DNA of 64,000 nt, taken from NCBI RefSeq assembly GCF_000003815.2, contig NC_049979.1, positions 12,760,613 through 12,824,612 of the forward strand. The letters are read 5' to 3'. The notes below the pieces were generated by a model that was given only the letters and a program-made list of their open reading frames with translations, was not told where the DNA came from and did no database searches. Source of the stretch: Branchiostoma floridae. Taxonomy: Eukaryota > Chordata > Leptocardii > Amphioxiformes > Branchiostomatidae. Below, piece by piece: positions 10,784 to 52,800 of this stretch. The position numbers and the translations under genes are program-made. The number at the start of each line of letters is the position of its first letter. The stretch's first letter is position 1.

Positions 10784-13700
10784 ATGGCGGCGTGCAGTCC
10801 ATACGGCTCGTGGAAGTCTCCCATCTCCAGCGCGCTGGTGGCGGAGAGCGGCATCCGCCTGTATGACGTACAGGTGGACAAGTCGGGTAAACATCTAGGT
10901 AAATCTCACTGCGTTGATCTTGTTGGAATTTCTTTGCTTCATGGTGCTTCTGTTGCAATTAAGAGTCATTGCACGAGAAAACCAGGCAAAACCAGGCAGA
11001 GGCCGGAAGATGGGGGTCGGCCAAATCGACTCAAACTTTTTATGTGTGATAGGTATGTGGAACTATGAACAGCCATATAGTTAAAACCCTCCAGCTATTT
11101 TTCGTTATGGCGTTCTGGGACCCCCCCCAGGGACCCTCTAAAATCCAACAATTTATGCCTGAAAATTACTAAAATTTCGATGGCTATTTTGAAAAATCCG
11201 ATCAAGATACGAACAAAAGTTTTACATTTTCATATAGCATGAATTCTTAAGTGTTACAGACCAAAAGTTGAAGATGGTACATTAAAGTTTAGAGGGTGTG
11301 CTAGGGGGTTACCTGAACCATTGAAAGCAGAATTTTTGTCACTGTAAATTTTAGTCATTTTTAAGGCGCAATAAAATCTATGCCCAGCGGGTCTGGTGAA
11401 TGGTTTTAATGTTGATAGAGAGAGGAACATCTACTTATTCAAAAACAATCGTCGTCTAATTGGGCCATACATAACGTGAGCCGTGAGAGGGGGGTCTTTA
11501 TGGGGATTTTTCGGGTTTTGGTCTTTAGTAAATCGGGTGATTATATTACTCCATGGGGGGTAAGTCGTGGCGAATGTTTGCGAAGTTGTTTGTGAACCAT
11601 GCATAAGTGTCAAAATATCATGGTTGATTGGTAATATTAATTTGGGCTCCATATGGGGGATTTGGGGATACCATAAAAGGCATTGTGCTGATTTTATACA
11701 TTTTTACTGTTGCTTTTTAATGTTATTAAACTGGTATCTGTTCCTAAATTATTTGTACATACCAGCTATGTTGTGCACAATGAGAAGGCTCTACATGGGG
11801 GTTACCAGGACTCAACAAATGTGATACCATTTAATAGAAAGGGCACGTGGATGCGGATATACCTAATGTATATTTAAAAAAAATAGAACAAGACCACAGC
11901 GAAGGTCAAGATTAATGCTTTTGGGAATGGATAAGTGTACATTATACTTTTTTCATCAATACGGGTGCATTATAGGTACTGCTATAGACAAACAACATTA
12001 CATCGGTGGTTTGTATGCCTGACTATTCATCATTCACCACTATAAGGTCATGCTAATTTAGGGAACTGATGTGAGCCCCGGTCAAGCGGAATGCACGGAA
12101 AAATTTGCCTTTATCATGTCATATTTCAATAAGGCTATTTAAATGATGACTACATGTACATTGTACTTTTTTTTATCAATTTCGGTATACCATAGCGCAC
12201 AGTTTAGGTTACAAAGTGCTGTACATCAATTGCTAGACATTCATTACCATAAGGACAAACCAAAAACCAAATCTATCACAAACCCTTTACATGTAGAACC
12301 CCTTTAGTATCAAGTTAACTGTCGAGACGCAAAATCAAACGCAAAGGACAGTTCACTTTTGTTTTAGTGGTGATAGCACTTTTGTCAAAATTACGCTACG
12401 AAAGAATAAATTAAAGTAACAAATTACAAAAATTACAGCCAAGCAGCTTACAATATTGTACAAGTCTTTCAGTAGCACAGAGGTAGCATGAAAGCACAGA
12501 ATTTGTGGCCACTAACGTGGAGTCAATAAACTAAATTTAGATGGATAGAAGAGGAATGCAAGTGGCAGGCACTGCAAACACACTATATACTAGCATTGAC
12601 TACATTCATCTTTTCATGATTGAACTGGCAATAACCAACGGCCTTGAATCATTAAAGCTAAAGTAACTAAAACTTGTGTCAGGCCATTTTCTTCTGCCCG
12701 TTATAGGCTACATGACACTTCCTTTCCTACAGGTATTGGAAACTATCGTAGGCACATGCACATACATGTAGATCCTTGTAAAGGATTCGTCAAAGACTTT
12801 GTTTTTGGCTTGTGGTGTGCACATCAATTATAAGCTTTTTTCATTGTCAGAAAAAAAGAAACGTTTAGATTTTAACCGTACTGTAATTCATACAAAGCAG
12901 CTACAAAATGAGCAAATATATGCCGTATATTGCAAACACATCGGCAAACGTGAATGTGTACTAATTACTTAGAATGCCAACGTCAATTCCAAGGTCGAAC
13001 GAGAAGATATGAAAGAACGAAAATCAAGAATCCGTTGTTTGGTATATCATACTCTGTGTGTTTTGTCATTTGTTCAGCTTTCCTGACCATACCACCTCAC
13101 CATAATCGATGCAAATTTTTTTGGCAATTTTTTTTATTAGCCTACTCGCATCAGTTCCCTAATCAGCATGACCTTATAATGCTGAATGATGAATAGTCAG
13201 GCATATTTATGTAATGCTGTTTGTCTTTAGCAGTACCTATAGTGCACCCGTATTGATGAAAAAAGTATAATGTACACTTATCCATTCCCAAAAGCATTAA
13301 TCTTGACCTTCGCTGTGGTCTTGTTCTATTTTTTTAAACATACATATAGGTATATCCGCATCCACGTGCCCTTTCTATTAAATGGTATCACATTTGTTGA
13401 GTCCTGGTAACCCCCATGTAGAGCCTTCTCATTGTGCACAACATAGCTGGTATGTACAAATAATTTAGGAACAGATACCAGTTTAATAAGATTAAAAAAC
13501 AACAGTAAAAATGTATAAAATCAGCACAATGCCTTTTATAGTATCCCCAAATCCCCCATATGGAGTCCAAATTAATATTACCAATTAATCATGATATTTT
13601 GACACTTATACATGGTTCACAAACAACTTCGCAAACATTCGCCATGACTTACCCCCCACGGAGTAATATAATCACCCGATTTACTAAAGACCAAAACCCG

Positions 13701-16700
13701 AAAAATCCCCATAAAGACCCCCATCTCACGGCTCACGTTATGTATGGCCCAATTAGACGACGATTGTTTTTGAATAAGTAGATGTTCCTCTCTCTATCAA
13801 CATTAAAACCATTCACCAGACCCGCTGGGCATAGATTTTATTGCGCCTTAAAAATGACTAAAATTTACAGTGACAAAAATTCTGCTTTCAATGGTTCAGG
13901 TAACCCCCTAGCACACCCTCTAAACTTTAATGTACCATCTTCAACTTTTGGTCTGTAACACTTAAGAATCCATGCTATATGGAAATGTAAAATTTTTGTT
14001 CGTACCTTAATCAGATTTTTCAGAATAGCCATCGAAATTTCAGTAAATTTCAGGCATAAATTGTTGGATTTTAGAGGGTCCCTGAGGGGGGTCCCAGAAC
14101 GCCATAACGAAAAATAGCTGGAGGGTTTTAACTATATGGCTGTTCATAGTTCCACATACCTATCACACATAAAAAGTTTGAGTCGATTTGGCCGACCCCC
14201 ATCTTCCGGCCTCTGCCTGGTTTTCTCGTGCAATGACTCTTAAGATTGTTACGTTCCGGACCGGTAACTTAAAATTTTCTGAACTTTAGTTATGTTATCA
14301 TAGGTCGTGATCCACACGTCTGTTTTATGCCGTGTACTTGGCTGCAGGCACTGCAACATCGATTGAAATTAAGGGGAAGTGCAAGGTGCAATCTTGGGCG
14401 TTGGTCTTGATTGAAACACTTTCACTTTCAGAGGTAGACCATGGTGCAAAATTTTGGGGACATGGCTTATAATTCTTCAAGCAGAGGTTTCAGTTGAGGG
14501 ATAGTAGTTACAATTCTTCAAGCAGAGTTTTCAGGGGAAACTTTTAACGTCAAGCAGAGTTTTCAGGGGAAACTTTTAACGTCTGCGCCTGACTGAAACT
14601 TCACTTTGGAAAATAATAATAAGTAGTGGCCACGATTTCTTTAATGTTGGTGCATCCCTATTAAGGGCAGAATTGCAGGTTTGAGTAGACAAGAGTAGAG
14701 TGGTTGGAGCTAGGTAGGAGTTTGGGCAAGGTTTGAGTTTGGGGTAATCCATCTTGTATTATAGCTGAAGTGTCTTTCGTCAAAAAAAGTACATATCATA
14801 GGCGTATATACTGTGAATTCTTTAAATTCTTATTTTCTTTCTTCTACTTGGATGTGTTACATCAGACAGGGTATACTGGTCTGAGCTGCGCCCCGCTGAA
14901 GGTGGCCGTTATGTGGTGTGTTCGAAGGACGGAGACTCCCAGCCTACGGAGTGGACTCCAGAAGGCTTCAATGCACGCACCCGTGTACACGAGTATGGTG
15001 GAGGAGCCATGTTTGCACACAATGGAGTGGTGTACTTCTCCAACTTCACGGACCAGCGTCTGTACAGGCAGACCTCACCTGATGCTGCTCCTGAAGCCAT
15101 CACCCCTGCTGACTCAGGCTGGAGGTTTGCAGATGGACACTTCTGTGAGAAGGTATTGTCAATGTCATCATCTTTGCTTTATCCAAGGAGGTTAACCTTA
15201 ACTTGCATTAAATTCTTTGCATTCATAACCAGTAGAAGTTTAAACTGGCTAAGCTGTTGTATCATCAATGCTTGTTTATTTTGGAGGAATGAATTTACAC
15301 ATAGCTTTGAGCAAACTACTTTTTTATCAATCTGCCTTTGTTTATTCTTGTTGTTGTTGTTGTAGCTGAACATCATCACAGCAGTGCGTGAGGACCATAG
15401 TGTTGTTAACAGGGGCGAGGCCAAGGAAGCAGCCAACACAGTTGTGGCCATCCATCCTGACACACAGGAACAGTTTGTGTTGGTGAGGCAGATACATATG
15501 AGTACATTTATACTGTCTGAAAAAAGTTATGTGTGTATGTGGTTTTATCTAAGGGTAAGCAAATGTCAGAAAACAAAGGGAAAATGGAAACATGTAATGT
15601 TAGTATCAAACTGATAAGTCAGTACCATGGACAGGACTGCTATGGAATGATATGTGTTCAATACTAGCAATGTTAACCGCCTTGGAAATAGATACAACAT
15701 TGCATATGATATAACAATGAAACATACTTCCTTGTGATTACATATAGTTTGTCTGTTAGGGTGTTAGAGGATACTCAGTATAGATCTTGGCTTGTTTTCA
15801 GTCACTCTGAAAGGACTGGCTTGACATAACATTGTACAAAAGTTAAGTCCGCAGTCTCATTGAGCCTGACTTATCCTAAATTTGGGCATGGCTGATGGTT
15901 GTGACCTTTTCCCCGCAGGCCTCAGGGTCAGACTTCTATGCTTCTCCCCGTGTGTCACCTGACGGCAAGAAGATCTGCTGGACTCAATGGAACCATCCCA
16001 ACATGGTCTGTTCTGTACTTCTGCAGTCCACAGTTGTGTAATTGTGTAGTCTGCATACTCATATATGATGATGTCACCATGTTGAGTCCAGACAAATAGT
16101 CAGGCACATTTGTTTATTGCAGACTGTGCATGTTAAAGATGAAGTTATTAAACTGCCAACAAGCAAAGTTGATGTAATTAATGATGTTGGTGTGCTGTGT
16201 TCTCTCCAGCCTTGGGACTCCACTGAGATTTGGCAGGCTGACATGCAGCCTGATGGGAAGGGGGTCAGGGAAGCACACAAGGTTGGTCACCATGCTCATC
16301 TGCTGTTAGTTGACTTGTTGGCCTTTCCATGGTGCTGAAATCATGGTGCTGTAAGGCCTGCAGTCCAGAGGTGGCTCTGGTGTTTTTGCACTACCATTTG
16401 TTGTAGATGTACATGAAGTAACAGAATGTACATGAAGTCCCCCTATAGCATCTCAATATCACAATTGTGAAACAATAACAGCTGTTAGAGATAAACTGAT
16501 ATTGTGTGTCATATATAGGTGTGTGGTGGGGATGACATCAGCGTCATGTATCCAAGATGGTCTCCCAGTGGAGAGCTGTACTACATCAGTGATGTCTCTG
16601 ATTGGTGGAACCTGTATCATGTGACCTCATCAGGTGACCATGTTGCCATAGGACCCCAGCAGAGGGAAATCGGTGGTCCACACTGGCAGTTTGGAAATGC

Positions 16701-19700
16701 ACCATATGACTTTGATCCTGACAACGGAGTAATTGTTACTGCCTATGGCATGGTATGTGTGTTAGTTTTATGTTCTTCAGCTTCTCTATGTGCATTATTA
16801 CAAAGAGCTGATTGATCCATTTGAGTGTTTCACAGCTGTATGAGGAGCACTGTTGATGCATTTTATGCTATACTTTAACTCACCAACAAGCCATGGTTAT
16901 TCCCTGAATTGGTAGGAGCTTGGCTTCTATGAGATGGGGAGTGGAAAGCACCTTAAGAACGTGGACACTGGGTTCAAGACCCACAGCTACTTGGTGATGG
17001 GTGGGAAGGGGTGTGCCTACTGCATAGCCAGCAGCCCCACACAGTTCCCCAGTGTCATCAGGGTTAACTATGCTACTTCTAAGGTTGGTATGTTATATCA
17101 TAATCCTCTGTATTAACATTAATGATTAAACTGGAGTAACTTCAGAACTGTATGAATTGTTGTTCAAAACAATGGTTCTTTACCATTGCATGTTTTAAAT
17201 ACTAGTAGTGGAGACACTGGTGTCACCTCCCAAAAGAGGATGATCTGAACTGAACTGAGTACCTTCAAGTGTGACATTATATCCTAAATGTTATTTTGTC
17301 ATTTCATGTCTCATTGTTGAGTTATTGTAAGCGTTTAATTGCTAAGCTTGCTGTCAAACACTGTAGGCCGACACTGTGAAAAGTACGAAGGACATGCCTG
17401 TGGACACAGGGTACTTCAGCATTCCAGAGGAGATCACATTCCCCACTGCAGGGGGAGACACAGCACATGCCTACTTCTACCCACCCAAGAACAAGGACTT
17501 CACAGCGCCAGAGGGAACCCTGCCCCCACTGCTGGTACGCGCTCATGGCGGCCCAACATCCTCCTGTTCCAGCACCCTCAACCTCAACATACAGTACTTC
17601 ACCAGTCGTGGGGTCGGGTTGCTGGATGTCAACTACAGGGGCAGCACTGGCTATGGCAAGACATACAGGAACAAGCTCAGGCTGAAGTACAGTAACCTTA
17701 ACATTATTAGGACGGGGGGAGAATGAAAAAGATGTCTGATTTTAAACAATGATTCGATTCCTGTTGTTAAAAAGCCATTTACCTTCCATATAATCCTATG
17801 GGCCTTTGCTTACACAAGGTGACCTATACATGTGAGGGGGCTAAACCAAATGTTACATGTTACAACAGGCTCTTGTGAGTCATGGAAAAAATGGCATGTA
17901 CCTGGTGCTCCTGATTTATCATGCTGTGGTTCTGTTGCCAGCTGGGGAATCCATGATGTGGATGACTGCTGCCATGGAGCCCTGTATCTGGCAGACAAGG
18001 GCAAGGTGGACAGGAAGAGACTGGCCATCGATGGAGGGTCAGCAGGGGGGTACACCACTCTGGCAGCCTTGGCCTTCAGGGATATCTTCCATGCTGGTAG
18101 GGACTTGCTTCTTGATTGTCTTACCGGTTAACACTCTGACAGTGTCGCATTAGTAAAAACAACATGCATGAAAATCTAGGTAGAAGTGTTTGTCTCACCT
18201 GGCCAATCTTATGAACACCGTGTTTGTCCAAAATAGTTCATACACACTGCAGTCTATCCTTTCATTTGCTTTTCTAAAAATTGATTTTTGTTATCTGTTC
18301 TAGTAGACAATTTAAGTGCTGACAATTTTAGTGATTTGTTTGTTATTATGTTGCACTACCTTATTGTAATTGTAAATTGCATGCATCAGGTCGGTTGTCA
18401 TTCATAAGCATGAGTATTTTCCCTGGCCTTGATACCATGTCATTGACAGCTGTTGTCACTCATTATGAAAATATCATATTTCTCACCAAATGCTTTTTTC
18501 TGTCGGTCTTTGAACCATGAAGGCTGGTTGTCATTCTTGACACGATGACAACCATGCGCAAAACTTCTATCATATTAGGTGTAAGCCATTATGGTGTTGG
18601 AGACTTAGAGGCCCTAGCAAAGGACACTCACAAGTTTGAGAGCAGATATCTGGACACCATTATTGGTGCATACCCTGAGATGGAGAGCACATACAAGGAA
18701 CGTTCTCCCATCAACCATGTGGACAAGCTGAGCTGTTCTATTGCATTGTTCCAGGGAGGCGAGGATAAGGTATGTAAGACCAGGGAAGTACATCTTACAA
18801 TGACTGACAACTGTAGGCCTCTACTGTGACACATACAATGTAACCTCTACTGTACTAAATAACTAGGAGTAAGCCATTATGGAATTGGGGATTTAGTGGT
18901 CTTGGAAGAGGAGGGCCACAAGTTTGAAGCAAGGTACTCTGCGACTATGATTGGCCCCTATCCTGAGAGCATTGACACTTACAGAGATCGCTCCCCCATC
19001 AACCATGTGGACAAGCTGAGCTGTCCTATCGCATTGTTCCAGGGAGGGGAAGACAAGGTTGGTTGAAGTATGACAAACATGAGGTCTACTTCATAGTAGA
19101 AGGTGATAAGGATACTTTTGCTTCGAACAGGGACATCTGCGGTCACGTATGGTTACGAAACATCATCATCATCATTTTGGATGTGTTGGTTACAAACAAT
19201 GGTATCTATTTTACCACTCAAAGAGATAATATTACAATGGCCTCGCATCTCCTTAAAAATAATTTCTCAGGACATGTGACAATGCAGATATTGGCAATTA
19301 GCAATCAGGCTGGGTTGGAAGGGGAATAGGGTGTTTGCAGCGACATAATTATGGTGTCATTACAGTGTGTAACAAGTCCAAGGTTGGTAAAGTTAGTTTG
19401 TGTCCTCCACAGATTGTACCTCCTAACCAGGCAGAGATGATGTTTGAAGCCGTCAAGAACAAGGGACTCCCATGTGCCTTTGTACTCTTCCCTGGTAAAC
19501 CTTTAAAGTTGCACCTTCTCTGATGCTTTCATGCCATAATTCATGCATTAATGCCAAACATTCAGCAGTTGTGCTTCCCCTAAGATTAAAATGAAGATTT
19601 GTTTTCTGGCCATACTAACTTTTAAGTATTGGATGACATCAACCTAAATTCAATGTATTAGTACAATAACCACCGAACAGCGCCAATCAGAACAGTGAGA

Positions 19701-20016
19701 ACCTGAATTTCGTGTTTTCTTCCAGATGAACAGCATGGATTCAGGAAGGCAGAAAACATGAGGAGGGCTCTGGATGGAGAGTTCTACTTCCTAGGCAGGG
19801 TGTTCGGCTATGAACCTGCTGACAAGGGTGGAGAGGTGAGTGCAACTGCTTGAAATTAGTGGCCCTGTAGTCTATGGTTTGCTTCCTTGGCAAATTTGAT
19901 TTGCAGCACATCTTTGTAATCCAACATATTTGGAGCTGAACTAGCATTTATCTTATTGTGATCAACATCTTCTATATTCTATGCCTTTGCAGATTGAGAT
20001 TGAGAACATGGCTTAG
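10784..20016 (+). CDS. S9-family serine peptidase (acylaminoacyl-peptidase/prolyl-oligopeptidase-like), 13-exon coding frame
   Basis: Exons: 10784-10886, 14866-15152, 15366-15482, 15919-16005, 16210-16281, 16519-16752, 16916-17083, 17367-17686, 17942-18096, 18579-18769 (or 18867-19057), 19413-19494, 19726-19835, 19993-20016. Junctions are GT-AG and the sum is 1950 nt, 649 residues. The N-terminal half ([37 protein letters not shown]) is the beta-propeller. The C-terminal half is an alpha/beta hydrolase with [16 protein letters not shown] and the nucleophile DGGSAGG (Ser about 496), Asp about 577 in GGEDK and His about 609 in HGF. The 81 and 32 residue spacings are close to those of Aeropyrum acylaminoacyl peptidase. 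Such enzymes remove residues or dipeptides from short peptides. The propeller resembles bacterial and plant S9 peptidases more than vertebrate APEH, DPP4 or PREP. No signal peptide is seen, so it is probably cytosolic. Confidence 0.93.
10960..14243. mobile_element. 3.28-kb fold-back transposon with about 1.1-kb terminal inverted repeats and TTAA target site
   Basis: The sequence from GAGTCATTGCACGAG (after TTAA 10960-10963) to CTCGTGCAATGACTC (before TTAA 14240-14243) has arms that are inverted copies. Left arm is about 10964-12071, right arm about 13149-14239, roughly 97% alike by eye, around a 1.08-kb unique spacer. TTAA lies at both outer edges, the target site of piggyBac and Kolobok elements; the ends lack the piggyBac CCC start. 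The left arm has one extra copy of a 9-bp AACCAGGCA unit. No transposase frame is visible in arms or spacer, so it is non-autonomous. It sits in intron 1 of the S9 peptidase gene. Confidence 0.88.
14519..14582 (+). repeat. Two perfect tandem copies of a 32-bp unit
   Basis: 14519-14550 and 14551-14582 are identical; each begins CAAGCAGAGTTTTCAGGGGA and ends TTTTAACGT. A diverged third relative (AATTCTTCAAGCAGAGGTTT) precedes at about 14473. Intronic, with no gene content. Confidence 0.85.
18579..18769 (+). other. Alternative exon 10A of the S9 peptidase
   Basis: 191-nt exon (acceptor tattag, donor gtatgt) encoding [15 protein letters not shown] through to ALFQGGEDK, including the catalytic Asp and the helix before it. 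It shares about 46 of 64 residues with exon 10B at 18867-19057. It starts in phase 1 and ends in phase 0. Confidence 0.92.
18867..19057 (+). other. Alternative exon 10B of the S9 peptidase
   Basis: Also exactly 191 nt, with good splice sites (aactag / gttggt), encoding [17 protein letters not shown] through to ALFQGGEDK. It is 97 bases downstream of exon 10A. Splicing 10A directly to 10B would read GAG TAA at the junction and terminate, so the two must be used alternatively. Confidence 0.92.
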
Positions 20017-36386: not shown

Positions 36387-38027
36387 TAGCATTAAATGTC
36401 ATCATATACCTAGGACCTGCAAAATGTCTCACATGATTACAAAAGGGAGAAGAACTGAAGGCTTAGCGATACCACTTGTTCTTTATTATTATGTATGTCA
36501 ATAACAGGATTTACTAGCTATGTTGTCATGAGACAAATAACAGTCATGAACGTTGAAGGCACAAGCAAACTCATGATCAGAAACTTCTCATCATCAATGT
36601 AAGACATAATTTGCTTGAAACATGATGCAATAAGTTGATCGAAACATGGAAAACAATGTCTAAGCGTGACCTATTTGTTAAAACAAGCACTGATTTTTCT
36701 TGTATGAGCAAACATTGCTTGGGTGGTGTAGATTCTGAATTATCGTACATGTATTATATCTGAATGATTTATCAAGGGCAGTATTGTCAGTAAGTATCAA
36801 GGAAGATCAAGAGAAAGGACATTTAATTTCCTTTAAGGTTAATATTTATTTTTTTTAGCCATTTTTAGATTCATGTGTAAGCATTTTAGATTCAATAGGA
36901 CTGAGTGGCATGCAAATAGATTGGCAGAATTACATTTTTATTTGAGCCTGAAAATTGTTGTAGAGAACATCACAAATGTGAAGACAATGATATAATTGAT
37001 TACGTTTGTTTATAATATGTACAATGTATAGGGCCATCTTGTAATGAAGAACAGGTGAATGCGTTATATGCTCAGTTCCCCCACATAGTGGACAAGGTAA
37101 TGATTTCAGTGGAGACAGGGAGTCTACAACACCTGAAGCACATGGACTGAACATATCATAAGTCAGCATACATGCAGGATCTGGGTTTCAAACCAGGATC
37201 AGTCCCTGTTTCCTGTGGCTATCTGCAGTAGTAAGTGTTGTACATCTAGGCAAGACAGATAGGAAAGCTCAGGAAATGGGACAGTGCTCAATCAAGTACA
37301 TACCTTAACAAATTGTTGCTTTACAAGTACAGGATTTTATTTTTACATGGTGTTGCTTATATAGTTACATGATTAATTGCCACTTTCTCTGCAAAACTCA
37401 GAACATTTAAGGCATTCACTACTCACCTGATGACAAACTACATGCTTGCGTTAACATTTATTGCATGGTCTTCAGTTTAACCTAGCAAATGATATGTTGT
37501 TAATGTAACTACTGAGGATAAAATGTCCACGTTTTTTACTAATGACTTTGGAACAAACAGGCCTATAAATGATATCTGAAAACCTTGGTTATTGATTACC
37601 ACGCTCTGCAGTTCAGATCCTCAAGACAAGTACACTACGAAACACGACCCGGAAGTAGTCTTACACTGCTGTTGAATATTCATGACCGGTGAATTTGCAC
37701 ACGGCTCTCGTTATCGTGTTCCACACGGCCCCAAAATAATTAAGGTTTCTTCAAACTGGCGCGAAACCTGTCCGGACCAAGTGCCAACCCCCAAATAAAC
37801 CAAGTGGAACAGAAAAAGGGCTAGTGAGTAAGCGATTGAATCCCTTCTTTCTTTGAAAATGAATGACCCAAGCACACATAATAGACCTCACGTGACGCGG
37901 AATAGACGTAACACATCTCGTGACTATCAGTATCAAGGTAGTCACTGCCGGCGTCACGTAATCCTCGATACGCTGGCTTCATAAGCGCCGAACGGCACTA
38001 TTTTCATCATATCTGTAGTACTAAAGG
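36387..38027. other. Intergenic: DTL 3' flank and ZIP transporter promoter
   Basis: No coding exon. ATTAAA at 36391-36396, right after the DTL stop, is a poor position for a signal; no clear AATAAA follows nearby. Upstream of the ZIP gene are an ETS-type CCGGAAGT (37649-37656) and a palindromic E-box TCACGTGAC (37888-37896) that fits MITF/TFE-type factors. These are motif matches only. Confidence 0.45.
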
Positions 38028-38981
38028 ATGGACCTGATCATCGTGCAGCTTCTGACCCTCCTCGGACTTCTGGTTACATGTTTGACATTCTCCTTGATCC
38101 CACTGGCCCTGGCATGGAGGGCATCCAGGCCGTCGTCAATAAACAACAGACTGGGCTCCCGTTTTCTTGGCAAGGTGAACAGCTTCGTGGGGGGAGTTTT
38201 CTTCGCAACGTGTTTTCTTCACTTGCTGCCAGAAGTGAGGAAGGACCTTGGGAACAACTTGCGTGGATACGGGATCGTTACGGCTTATCCCGTAGCCGAA
38301 CTGGTGACGTGTGTTGGGTTTTTCATAGTTCATCTGGTGGAAAGTTTGACACATCTTTGTTTACCTCATGACGAAAGTCCGTCCCGGGACCGACGATCGT
38401 ACAACACAGTCGATGAGGAGGGCACAACTCGTCCATTGATAAGAGGTGAATCCAAGGTGGACTACGGGGCAGTCAATCCTTCGGCACAAGGGACAGGGCC
38501 ATCAGACAGTTCTGTGGAAGTAATACGTGATGACAGGGACGTGGGAAGAAACGTACATACATTCCTGCTTCTTATCGCTTTAAGCGTTCACGGGACGTTT
38601 GAAGGTGTTGCACTGGGTGTCCAATCCTCACAATCATCTCTTCTATCGCTGTTTTTCGTAGTTGTCGTCCACAAAAGCATCTTAGCCCTCAGTCTTGGGA
38701 TGAACGTCGCAACCGGTGACCTGTCATTACCATACAAAGTCATCACCTGCGTAGTTTTTAGTCTAGCCGGTCCAGTAGGACAAGGTATTGGCCTCCTGGT
38801 CACCAACGCAGACGGCGGTGGTCTCGTCACCGGCATTCTGCAGGGGGTGGCTGCGGGAACTCTGCTTCATGTCACGTTCATGGAGGTACTTTCCAAAGAC
38901 ATGAAAACAAGCGATATGCTATCTACGCTGTCTGCCGTCATTGGGTTCGCTCTCATCGCAGGGTTGACTCTCTTGGATTGA
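38028..38981 (+). CDS. Intronless ZIP-family (SLC39, ZIP-II type) metal transporter
   Basis: A 317-residue single-exon protein with about eight hydrophobic segments, the ZIP topology. ZIP proteins move Zn2+ or related ions into the cytosol. Landmarks: TM1 about residues 2-28; FLHLLPEV in TM2 (about 63-70); a hydrophilic loop about 115-175 between TM3 and TM4 with acidic residues and only a few His; VHGTFEGVALGVQ in TM4 (classically HS-x-FEG, here HGTFEG); VVVHKSILALSLGM in TM5 carrying the metal-site His; and GTLLHVTFMEVL in TM7. This pattern fits the SLC39A1/2/3 branch. The lack of introns, unlike all neighbours, suggests a retroposed copy or complete intron loss. A candidate AATAAA is at 39781-39786, giving a 0.8-kb 3' UTR. 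Confidence 0.93.
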   Translation: MDLIIVQLLTLLGLLVTCLTFSLIPLALAWRASRPSSINNRLGSRFLGKVNSFVGGVFFATCFLHLLPEVRKDLGNNLRGYGIVTAYPVAELVTCVGFFIVHLVESLTHLCLPHDESPSRDRRSYNTVDEEGTTRPLIRGESKVDYGAVNPSAQGTGPSDSSVEVIRDDRDVGRNVHTFLLLIALSVHGTFEGVALGVQSSQSSLLSLFFVVVVHKSILALSLGMNVATGDLSLPYKVITCVVFSLAGPVGQGIGLLVTNADGGGLVTGILQGVAAGTLLHVTFMEVLSKDMKTSDMLSTLSAVIGFALIAGLTLLD

Positions 38982-46800: not shown

Positions 46801-49800
46801 CTGGTTGTAACGTTACACAATTATATGAAAGCCGAACATGTTTAGATTCATAAGTTGTTGAATTTAACATATTTCTAAGATACAGATCTATCACAATATG
46901 CTATTAAAAGTATTAATAATTCTATTGGGTGTTCCTGACACAGATTTGAAAATATAACAATAGCCATTCATGGTGATTAGCTTGTTCGTATATTTATGTT
47001 GATAATCCTGCGGTTTCCGTTCAATAGGCTGCCGTGTTGTATCTCTTGATTGCACATTGCTATTGCACATTGCTATGTCTTTGACAGTTAATAATATGTA
47101 CCTCACCGGTGTAAAACCGGATGCATAATGATGATAAATATGATGGAATAAATCTAGGTTCCGTGCCATGGGTCCAAACAGGCCAATATGTTGTCCTGTG
47201 TGAAGGTGACCTTGGAGAACATTGCATTATGGGCCATTGGTCAGTCATCGTTCATGTTAATGCTGTGGACATAGCTTACATAGGTTGTTTTGTAAGAGGG
47301 GAATGCCTTGAACTTACCCTAACTGTAGATGCATAAAAGAGGGTCTGCATGCTCTTTTCCGTAAGGCGTAGGCAGCCTATTTTTATTTCCCGTAATTCGT
47401 AGGGAAAACCATCTTATCTACGTAATTCGTAGTGAGGCGGCCAAATTTAGCGCAATTGCCTTCGTTGATTTGGCATAATATGTAGGGGTTCTTCTGAATT
47501 CAGTGTTAATCGTTGTCGGGCCCCCCCATGCAAACCCTCATAAAATGTTACACTGGTCAGTATCATCTTTGTACTTTGTAAATTACGAAGGTGAAGTTGT
47601 TGTAACTTATGTAATGGGGTATTCGTTTGACTGAATCAAGTGATTTGAATATTTTCAGGGATAAGTTATATTGAATCATTTATTTTCTTGCAGTTTAGGG
47701 CTGATTGAAAACAGTTTTGTAAACTACAAGTGTGTTTGGAAAGTTCTTTTTCTGGTTACCTTGATAGCATAAATCCCAGACAGAGCTGCATTCCAGTGTA
47801 ACATAAAGAACAATATTGCCTGACGTAAGTATACGTTGACATTGAATTTTGGTATATCTATTTTACTTGATAAAATTCCCAGTATTTGTATCTGCTTCTA
47901 TAATGAATTTTAGATTATATAATTGTTAATTATAATATGTTATGGTTGGTGGTACTATGTTTGCCTAAGCTAAACCAAGGTCGTATGTTCTTGGAAACAA
48001 TAGTGATTTTCATGTATGCTTTAGTTTAGACTGTAATGATGAAGTAGTTTATATGCAACATAAGGATTTGCACATACAAAAGAGGTGTTGCTGAAACAGG
48101 GTGAAAGATAAACGTACCCTTTCACAAAATGTTCATTGTTACAAATACAAGCTTGGCTGATTTGCATATTTGTCATGCATTGTTGATTTATGACTGCTGG
48201 ATACTCATTTGCATAACTGTCTGGCTTGGTTATTAAATTTCAAGCACTGGGTCTCCAGTCTGTTGCACATTGTGCGAGGTGTGTTTGATTATAGATAATA
48301 GTCTAGCCAACCATGTGCCCGGGCTTAACGGCCAAGGATAATTTGATCTTTCTTGTTGTTTGAGGTCTCACGTGACATGTAAACCTGTGATTGGTTAGTT
48401 TGAATCTGTATTGATTGTAGGGCAGTCCAGCCCCCTGTGGGCCCCCACCCCTAACAACCACCTACTCTCGTGTATCCTTCCACCCTTCTGTTTCGTGGAC
48501 AAGGCAGAACAAAAAGTTCCCTCTTTGTCACTTGTTAGTCATTATCATGCAAATTAGATTAGAGGTATATCCAGGCCAGGTGGCCAGTCACCAGACCTGT
48601 GCAGCTTGTCAATAGATCAAATGTTCAACTTGACATACCCAAAGCAAAATGTGCAGCTGTGGTATCTATTGCCTGTATATGCTTTCTGGTCATGTTCAGT
48701 TCATCACTTTGCACATTATGGCTGTCAGGGCTGAAGCTAATGACAGCTGATTTGCATTTGCTATCAATCAACCAATGGGAGGACTAGGTCCTGCAGCATC
48801 ATGGGATGGTTTCTTTTGGCTCATTTCCAATTCCCTGGCACTATGTACCTCAACCTGATTAAGATTTACAGTGGATAAACAGCAAATTTATTCATAAGAC
48901 TAGCATTTACCTCTACTGAAATGTAACGGTAGACTGAAACATAAGCAAGAAATCAGGCAGCATTAGGGGGATGCATACATTTTGCCATGATAAACAGAAC
49001 TCTTACCACATCTGGTTTTAAGGTAACCAAGACAGCTTGAGATGCCAAGGTAGATATTTATGGATGGATGGATGGCTATGGCCAGGGGTTGAATGTAAAT
49101 GGGACAGGTCTTAAAGCTGGTAAGCATCTGGAGGGATACCATCTGGTGAATGAAAGATGATGTGACTTGAACTTAAAATGCTGAACCCTGATATAGTACC
49201 TCAGAAGTAGGACATGGCTTTAGACTGAGTTACTGAGCTTTGCAGAATTTTTAGAACCTACCTTTTTATTATCTGCTCTTGTCTAATGCTCAGATCAGGA
49301 AATATAGTTTGGGTATCGGTGGAAAAAACACTTATTTTTATATAACATTACCCTCCGTGATCCCTCCCGATCCAGATCTAAGCAAAATCTATCTAAAGGT
49401 TACGGCTTACAAAACATTCGGTATGATGAAAAATCGAGTCACACAACATATACAATATAGGATAGTATATCATCATTTTAATTATACTGGACAATAATGA
49501 CCAGGCAGTATAATATGCAGGGCTCGAAATTCATTTTTGGGATTAGGTGCACTGGTGCACCCAACCAAAAAAATTGGGTGCACCAAAAAATTTTTGGGTG
49601 CACCACATAAAATAGCATAGAATTAGGTAGAAAACCCTACTTACAAACCTTACTGTTCCTCTTCTGAGCTTGTTGAATCTGAAATGGGAGTTTCAGTCTC
49701 ACCACGTGGTCTGGGCCCATAAGGGGCAGTTGAAGGTCGTCGCCTCCCTGCTGTCCACCACAGCCTTATGGCAGGCACAGGGTCAAATGTTTCAACTGAT

Positions 49801-52800
49801 TGTTCACTCAATGATATTGCCATCAGGCTTGTGAGACATGCAGGGGCAAGACAAGACCGCCAGTCTGTTTTGACTCGATTCATTAGCGAAAACGACCTCT
49901 CACACTCCGCCGTATGTATGGGGATTGTCAGTACCAGGCGAAGTAGTTGGAACACATTCCTGTACTCTTGTTCCTCGCGCCTTAACATCATCACCCAAAA
50001 GTCCTTAAATGATGGCGGTCTTCGCATACCGGACAGCTGGGTCCTGCAAACTCTTTTCAGCTCATGCCACTCTCTTAAGGCACTTTCAAGCTCAAACCCA
50101 TTCACTTCCAGTGGTCTTTGGAAGTGTCTGTAGATTTTCCTCAGTTTGTCTTCCTCAATGTCATCTTCAGTGTCATCCTCTTCCTCCTCTTCATCTTCCT
50201 GTTGCCAGCTGGAGAACTGGAAGACTCTTGCTGCAGAGAGTACAGACTGACTGAGCAAAGCATCAAATCTACGACCGAGATGATGTAAAGTTGAATTGAG
50301 AATCTGCTGACAATCTCTGATGACTTCTCCCCTATGTGCAGCAAGATCTGATGGTCTACCACGCTGTGCTCTTCCCATGTGCAATGTGGATCCCTTCCAC
50401 AGCACTGTCCCATCCCTTTCCTCCACCTCAGACATGAGTCTGGTCAGCTTCAAGGGGCTGCACAACTTAGTCAAAGATTTTACCACACTGTCTACCCGCC
50501 TGAAAACAGATTCCAGAGTACTTTCATTATCCTGAAAGACTTTGGACACTGAACACACAAGGTCCAGGTATTTTGCCAAGAACAGTGCAAACAACACAAA
50601 CTTGACAGATTTTACCACCTCGAGGATTCCCTTTGCTTTGTCCCGGCTATCACCACTCCCCAGTTGACCATGTTCTACAAGCTGTCCAAGATGCTGGACC
50701 AGGGCGGGATGGTCTCGTGTAATGGCTTTTAAGGCACGCTCTTGGTGTGGCAGCCACCTCGTACCAGTTGCCTTGGGCGGTTTCAGGACCTGAATGTGGA
50801 GAGCTTCTGCAGCATTCTTAAGTCCCTGCCAATTTAAGGGTGAGTAGTGGTAGAATTTGTAGATAGTAGTAAACATATCATGAACTGTGGAGAAGTATGC
50901 TACTTCTTTCAATACGTCCTTGAAGACAAGTTCGAGTCTGTGCGCACAACATTGCAGGACAATGAGGTGCGGACATTCCTCTAGTAAGCGTACCCCAACT
51001 CCGCTAAGGTTCCCCATGTTTACGGGTGCGCCGTCAAAGCATGCAAAAGTAAGTTTATCTCTCCAGGACTCTCCCAACTCAAGGTCTTCCTTCAAAGCTG
51101 TTACCACAGCCTCCGTAATGTGCGGAGCATCTCCTCTGTCAAGGGGCTTTAGCGCAACAAACACTGTAGTTGGCTCCAGGTTGTCCTTGAGGTATCTGAC
51201 ATGGATAACCTCCTCTTCAATAGACCCTCTATCAGTACTGCCATCGGCTAATATGGCGATAAAATCAGAATCTTTTACCGCATTTGACAACTTTTTACGC
51301 ATTTCTTCTGATATAAAGTCTACAAAGATCCTTGCCTCTTTGTCGTTGAGGTATGTTTGCCCCACATCGATACCATTCTTCTTCTGCAGTCGCATAATAC
51401 CCGGAAAATCTGTAAATGGTCTCCCTTGCTTTGCCAGATAAAATGACGTTCTAAACAAACATTGCATCTGATCAATTTTCTTTTCCTCCATTCGTAATAC
51501 TGCTTTCTGCATTGGTCTCTGCTGAACTGGTACATTTTCAGCTTCCAATTTCTTAACTGCAGTTTTGTGTTCTGGTCTTTTTTCATGTTTTCGCACATTC
51601 TTTATTCTCATTGATGTACATCCTTTGATGAATTTATTTCTCTTCCCACTTTTATCATATTTCTTGCATGCCTCACACCACATAATGCGCCTTCTAGAGT
51701 GTTTCAGCCACCATCTCTTTTTTCCCTTGTCGTCAGTCATCCAGGAATCCTGGAATTTGTATTGTTTCTTCTTCTTCTTTTTGGCCTTCTCATCCAAGGA
51801 CACTTGGTCCTAGAAAAAAATTGGACTTATAAATTTTTTTCAATGCCATACTTCCTTTTGTTCCTAAGAAAACTAAATTGAACAACTTCTTGACATGATC
51901 TGGGTAGCTCAATAAATAAAGGCAGAAAAGTTGTCAATGGAATATCATTGGAAAATTATGTTAATTATCTTTTTGGTGGAATCTATAAATATAATGCTAC
52001 AGTATAAAGTTGCATTAAAAGAAACATTAATTGCTGTTATTTTTGGCATCAGATTTCAAATTTTACTTGCAAAGCTTAAAACAGGAATAACCAACATGCG
52101 TGAGAAAAATAATACTAAATGAAATGTGTATCTTTTATCTAATATACATAATAACATCTATGAAAGTAATTTTTCACGAGTGGACAAAATAGAAAAAAAT
52201 ATTATTCAGTTTTTTTTTATTTTGTAATTTTTCACGAGTGGACAAAATAGAAAAAAAATGCTATTCATTTTTTTTATTTTGTAATTAAAATCACATGGCG
52301 AGGGGAAAAATAACGTATAAACATAAATATAAAATAAACATGCCTATAGGATTATTATTGGACGACATTTTAAAAATTTAAAAAAAATTAAAAAAAAATA
52401 GCCTTACACAAAGCTTTGGCCTTTTGGCAGCTTCTTCTGTCGCAGAATCGCTGTCGGATTCATCTTCTTCTTCTTCTTCTTCTGTCGCTGAAGACCCGCT
52501 GTCTGTTTCTTCTGTATCGGACTCCGACTGGGGGGGAGCCGACGCCGTGGACGGCCCTGGAATGTTGTTATTTTCCTCGCGCACGTGGGCGCCCCCCTCC
52601 CCCTCTGCCTCGCCGGAGGAAAATTGGGTTCTTCTGGTTCCTGATTCCTCACGCTCTGAAGGCTCAGGCGGTGTTTCTTGGATCTCTGGATCATCTTGAT
52701 CTTGAGTGTCGTTGCTTCGGCGTCCACCCCCACGCCCATGCCCTGAGTTTGGGCTACTTAGGAAGCGTAGCAAAGATGTTTGCTTTGACATGTTCACGCT

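Follow-up and report, generated by a model that had tools for sequence, protein, structure and literature searches.

A tandem-duplicated exon pair, apparently mutually exclusive by reading frame, in the catalytic domain of a lancelet S9 peptidase gene

Could a single lancelet gene produce two versions of a peptidase by exchanging one exon beside its active site? The question is raised by a 64,000-nucleotide stretch of the Branchiostoma floridae genome (hereafter the window), in which a first-pass annotation had described two adjacent 191-nt exons as alternative, about 72% identical versions of the same segment of an S9 peptidase. We analyzed the structure of this gene, the consequences of including either exon, and the divergence of the two copies in comparison with homologous proteins.

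Gene structure and the duplicated exon

The gene lies on the plus strand, from about 10784 to 20016 in the window (Table 1). Its exons from 14866 onward were placed by frame and splice borders, and the spliced product, exon 1 excluded, has 614 residues. A probable exon 1 was added on the basis of its frame, its donor GTAAAC and its resemblance to the expected start of family members. This first coding exon is in phase, and the numbering of the duplicated segment as exon 10 fits a gene model that includes it.

The gene product is an S9 peptidase of the prolyl-oligopeptidase type, with an activity that is predicted from its sequence. Indeed, the spliced 10B isoform matches the catalytic domain PF00326 with 159.7 bits, for a gathering cut-off of 22.6, and relatives of solved structure are found over the full length, namely the prolyl oligopeptidase 7c72 (E 5e-127) and the aminopeptidase 3azo/3azp (E ~1e-115). 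The alignment with 7c72 spans query residues 2-602 and this full-length match would imply an N-terminal beta-propeller; the spliced product matched no propeller family of Pfam at E 0.001. Among the named S9 subfamilies of NCBIfam (Dpp5 and others), the best score of the 10A isoform was 82.5 bits, to be compared with an equivalog cut-off of 900. Alignment with 7c72 and 3azo assigns the catalytic triad to the Ser of GGSAGGY in exon 9, to the Asp of GGEDK, present in 10A and in 10B as had been reported, and to the His of DEQHGF in exon 12. The homologues retrieved by a search of genome contigs (80 of 584 loci kept) are bacterial, mostly cyanobacterial, acidobacterial or from Chloroflexi, with 48-52% identity.

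Table 1. Exons of the S9 peptidase gene and the intron between the duplicated copies, in window coordinates.
Feature	Position	Strand	Description
Probable exon 1	10784-10886	+	putative start codon in CACCATGG context; ends ...VDKS + 1 nt
Exon 2	14866-15152	+	
Exon 3	15366-15482	+	
Exon 4	15919-16005	+	
Exon 5	16210-16281	+	
Exon 6	16519-16752	+	
Exon 7	16916-17083	+	
Exon 8	17367-17686	+	
Exon 9	17942-18096	+	nucleophile motif GGSAGGY; final base is the first base of a split Gly codon
Exon 10A	18579-18769	+	191 nt; completes the Gly codon and adds 63 residues, VSHYGVGDL...GGEDK; nearer the family consensus
10A-10B intron	18770-18866	+	97 nt
Exon 10B	18867-19057	+	191 nt; matching segment VSHYGIGDL...GGEDK; diverged at residues 6-25
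Exon 11	19413-19494	+	3' of the catalytic Asp
Exon 12	19726-19835	+	DEQHGF; contains the catalytic His as assigned by family alignment
Exon 13	19993-20016	+	last 24 coding bases, including the stop codon

Aligned without gaps, 10A and 10B are identical at 141 of 191 nucleotides. Their proteins share 45 of 63 residues, or 46 of 64 when the common split Gly codon is counted, and the identity announced for the pair is thus recovered. Outside the pair, the ungapped comparison of 10A with both strands of the window gives 77/191 at best (mean 48, s.d. 6.6), so that the resemblance between the two exons is far beyond chance. The splice sites described as intact indeed carry AG and GT at every border of both copies, with CATATTAG/GTG and AAG/GTATGT for 10A, and ATAACTAG/GAG and AAG/GTTGGT for 10B. 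This last donor is the same 9-mer as that found at the donors of exons 5 and 7. The polypyrimidine tract of the 10B acceptor is weak (9/17), equal lowest among the listed exons of the gene.

An allelic or assembly artefact was considered and rejected, given that a dS of ~1 far exceeds allelic divergence and that two distinct copies lie on one contig. Searches of the lancelet's own genome (513 Mb in 431 contigs, counts from which are lower bounds) for a second gene copy, with the 10A DNA and the 10B protein, returned only this pair. Besides its own locus, the exon 8 protein retrieved a single weak match (38% over 52 residues, E 0.009), which was discarded as a second copy and would be a distant relative at most. 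Other tandem exon duplications were looked for by comparing open reading frames within 8 kb across the whole window, and this returned only 10A/10B and repeat-like matches at 49-56 kb. In the literature on lancelet exon duplications or on mutually exclusive exons of S9 peptidases, within the partial coverage searched, we found no mention of the locus.

Two repeats were observed upstream of exon 2. A long inverted repeat at 10959-14243 takes up the greater part of intron 1; its 878-nt arms (10988-11865 and 13347-14224) are complementary at 98%, with more paired stretches inward, and it looks like a recent mobile element of the foldback or palindromic type. Just 5' of exon 2, a 32-nt unit is perfectly duplicated in tandem at 14518-14581.

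Reading frame and exon choice

The spliced sequences confirm that both exons have a length of 2 mod 3 and the same phase, and that a stop arises where 10A joins 10B, as the first-pass annotation had pointed out. If only 10A or only 10B is included, the reading frame stays open through the end of the product. When both are included, the junction reads AAG GAG TAA and translation stops one codon after GGEDK, and when neither is included the frame shifts after exon 9. A productive mRNA therefore needs exactly one of the two. The pair has the sequence features of mutually exclusive tandem exons, since these are adjacent homologous exons with splice borders, a shared phase and inclusion policed by the frame, this last feature being common among such exons though not required of them. 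Altogether, these data support the view that 10A and 10B are a tandem-duplicated exon pair, presumably mutually exclusive by reading frame. In this scheme, a single S9 peptidase gene would have acquired two versions of its exon 10 by tandem duplication and would use them one at a time, and transcripts with both or neither would be degraded or would yield a truncated protein devoid of the catalytic His. The frame had been called a built-in guarantee of exclusivity; it does make the double-inclusion transcript unproductive, but does not prevent joint splicing itself, and the wording was too strong.

How would the double product be avoided? The least demanding view is that it would be removed by nonsense-mediated decay. 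A hindrance at the splicing step itself, in which the branch point of 10B would lie too near the 10A donor for the 97-nt intron to be removed, is possible but rather doubtful. Such a mechanism is described for the OGDH exons 4a/4b, where PMC7969005 reports human distant branch points located 25-41 nt from the donor, which block double inclusion, with a threshold of about 50 nt. The intron that separates the OGDH exons is also short, 118-131 nt in birds and mammals (PMC7969005) against 97 nt here. The lancelet intron is the shortest of the 11 introns listed for the gene between 14866 and 19835. It contains branch-point-like TnAy sites with the A at +28, +34, +38, +60, +74 and +93, and both yTnAy matches, at +28 and +38, fall within the OGDH range and under its threshold (PMC7969005). 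Branch-point-like sites near the upstream donor are thus common to both pairs; however, the distant OGDH branch points described in the same source have been mapped, whereas those of the lancelet are motif matches (PMC7969005). Moreover, two yTnAy motifs per 97 nt are about what chance would provide (about 1.5), the intron has no long polypyrimidine run, and an AG at +46 sits between the distant sites and the acceptor. Since TGTGAC at +60 and TGTAACC at +74, which lie 37 and 23 nt from the acceptor, are also acceptable as ordinary branch points, steric exclusion is only a possible mechanism. In some insect genes, intronic RNA pairings compete and thereby select the exon; such a choice appears very improbable here. 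Intron 9 and the 97-nt intron do form a duplex of -53.0 that was matched by only 6 of 200 shuffled pairs, but this was one of three pairs tested and is not significant after correction, and the other two pairs behave as expected by chance (98/200 and 121/200 shuffled pairs).

Differences between the copies and the active site

In a tree of the 63 residues built from both exons and their bacterial homologues, and without support values, 10A and 10B are sisters. As bacteria are the only other organisms in this tree, all it says on the age of the duplication is that it followed the divergence from those sampled. The residue differences listed by the first-pass annotation are correct. When the commonest residue of the family is taken as reference, 10 of the 18 differing residues have changed in 10B and 4 in 10A, the remaining 4 being unpolarised; this excess is not significant by itself (p 0.18). 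The changes are distributed differently along the exon, as residues 6-25 contain 9 of the 10 polarised changes of 10B and none of the 4 of 10A (Fisher p 0.005, for a split at residue 25-30 that was picked after inspection of the data). In 10B, they include Thr16 to Gly (Thr in 78/78 homologues), Ser21 to Ala (Ser in 68/78), Leu24 to Ser (70/78) and Asp25 to Ala (71/78), and in 10A, Pro53 to Ser (Pro in 76/78), Pro30 to Ala (56/78) and Asp36 to Ser (50/78). We take 10A for the probable ancestral type of the enzyme and 10B for the specialised form.

Codons 43-52 (18707-18738 and 18995-19026) are identical at every base despite an overall dS of ~1, and synonymous differences amount to 4 of 20 in codons 43-63, to be compared with 13 of 25 in codons 1-42 (p 0.035). 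A gene conversion tract or a shared splicing signal could possibly account for this identity. The longest identical run has a p of 0.07, and a recent conversion of the back half is consequently only suggestive.

The exon-10 segment starts at the strand that follows the nucleophile and reaches the catalytic Asp. It aligns without gap with 7c72, whereas a one-residue insertion is needed for 3azo/3azp; these are single-version enzymes, and both keep TH.FES where 10B has GHKFEA. Our literature search found no papers on the 7c72 and 3azo/3azp structures. Exon residues 1-29 also align ungapped with the acylaminoacyl peptidase of Aeropyrum (E 2.8e-5), in a register checked by the position of Ser445 and Tyr446. 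In this alignment, Val471, Phe485 and Phe488 are the counterparts of residues 6, 20 and 23, and they touch docked ligands according to PMC4394528, the ligands being modelled organophosphates and the protein a distant archaeal one. Residue 17 corresponds to Asp482, described in PMC3338720 as belonging to a salt-bridge network around Arg526 and the catalytic Asp. The claim that the differences cluster in a substrate-facing region is borne out to the extent that this stretch aligns with substrate-contacting residues of solved S9 peptidases. Residues 17, 20 and 23 (His, Glu and Tyr) are identical in 10A, 10B and 78/78 bacterial homologues. At residue 6, the lancelet exons have Val or Ile. Both versions thus keep the contact-aligned Glu20 and Tyr23 together with the catalytic Asp, and the changed residues 16, 21, 24, 25 and 27 adjoin these conserved positions. 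Ile489 and Leu492 (exon positions 24 and 27) are residues that we take to belong to the S1 pocket.

Constraint on both copies and comparison with known systems

One would wonder whether 10B is a functional exon at all. In our opinion it is improbable that this copy is decaying or goes unused, and that it resembles an exon only at the sequence level. Its branch is indeed longer than that of 10A (0.43 against 0.13, with a stem of 0.29), it lacks the Thr found in all 78 homologues, and its acceptor tract is weak. Its intact frame is not rare under drift either, as ~14% of the runs that simulated neutral decay, with 0.5 substitutions per site, retain one, so that an open frame alone is weak evidence of constraint. 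On the other hand, four methods gave a dN of 0.17-0.21 and a dS of 0.86-1.18 between the copies, and the resulting dN/dS of about 0.16-0.2 is below the ~0.5 or more expected if one copy drifted freely (bootstrap median 0.16, upper 97.5% 0.36, from 500 replicates of which 26 saturated ones were set to 0). Furthermore, 10B keeps 23 of the 24 near-invariant columns of the family that are kept by 10A. When neutral drift was simulated with 0.5 substitutions per site, none of 20000 runs retained 23 of 24 without a stop; with 0.25, about 1 of 20000 did (5e-05). With a threshold of 75/78, each exon keeps 24 of 27 columns. The 78 bacterial homologues are on average 63% identical to 10A, 55% to 10B and 49% to the rest of the protein, which places 10B closer to them than the remainder is. 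Finally, both splice borders of 10B are intact, and it keeps Pro30, Pro53 and Asp36, all lost by 10A. These comparisons thus support protein-level constraint on both copies. It is also unlikely, if marginally less so than decay, that the 10B mRNA encodes a catalytically poor or inactive form (regulatory, dominant-negative or partner subunit) and not a second enzyme. This idea is consistent with the alteration of Thr16, Leu24 and Asp25 in the most conserved stretch of the exon, but 10B retains Glu20 and Tyr23 as well as the GGEDK loop with its catalytic Asp, and the triad is complete.

We therefore favor, with a probability of roughly 0.6, the reading in which frame-policed, mutually exclusive exons would give two active peptidases that differ in their S1-side surroundings. 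Each isoform would retain a complete Ser-Asp-His triad, and the swap would alter the surroundings of a helix that, by alignment, comes after the nucleophile strand and forms the S1 side of the pocket; a tuning of substrate preference, turnover or stability is therefore probable. Transcription of both exons, their exclusive choice and an altered activity would all be part of this scheme. A stronger version is tempting yet much more tentative: this single-copy gene would switch its S1-side helix between two substrate preferences, the ancestral features would be divided between the copies (the front being changed in 10B and the back in 10A), and two barriers, the frame and branch points crowding the 10A donor, would prevent double inclusion.

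A parallel can be drawn with several vertebrate enzymes. In PMC9741552, adjacent homologous exons likewise exchange one enzyme segment in KHK, ACOX1, CAMK2D and PKM, with transcript or protein support, whereas the lancelet pair is known from genome sequence alone. As for Arg108 of KHK, a catalytic residue, here the Asp, is kept in both versions while its neighbours differ (PMC9741552), and the conservation of contact residues among changed neighbours matches the pattern described there for human duplicated exons at ligand sites. None of the tandem-exon examples in section 10 of PMC9741552 is an S9 peptidase, and within a partial coverage of the literature we found no case of mutually exclusive exons in S9 peptidases. 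The JNK exon pair is also mutually exclusive and located within a catalytic domain, and is predicted to change kinetics and substrate affinity; it concerns a kinase with isoforms described in human and zebrafish, in contrast with the lancelet peptidase (PMC8586503). Duplicated mutually exclusive exons in the catalytic domains of enzymes are thus already known, and 10A/10B is a new instance of them. If both isoforms are made, they would form a natural pair of peptidases with the same propeller and triad, differing at 18 of 63 residues, 17 of which lie in the first 42. With such a pair one could cleanly test the way in which specificity in the prolyl-oligopeptidase family is set by the segment that follows the nucleophile strand, and exon duplication would stand in for gene duplication in the lancelet.

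Other reading frames were noted in the window. On the minus strand, an open reading frame at 1607-2317 contains a long proline repeat run of the GHIPPPPPPP type and matches no Pfam family at E 0.001. A 719-codon frame at 49650-51809, also on the minus strand, combines a C17orf113-type zinc finger with a hAT dimerisation domain; it is flanked by the repeat-like matches, at 49.5-56.2 kb, and represents a transposase-derived gene or element. On the plus strand, an intron-less frame of 318 codons at 38025-38981 corresponds to a ZIP zinc transporter (PF02535, E 9e-51).
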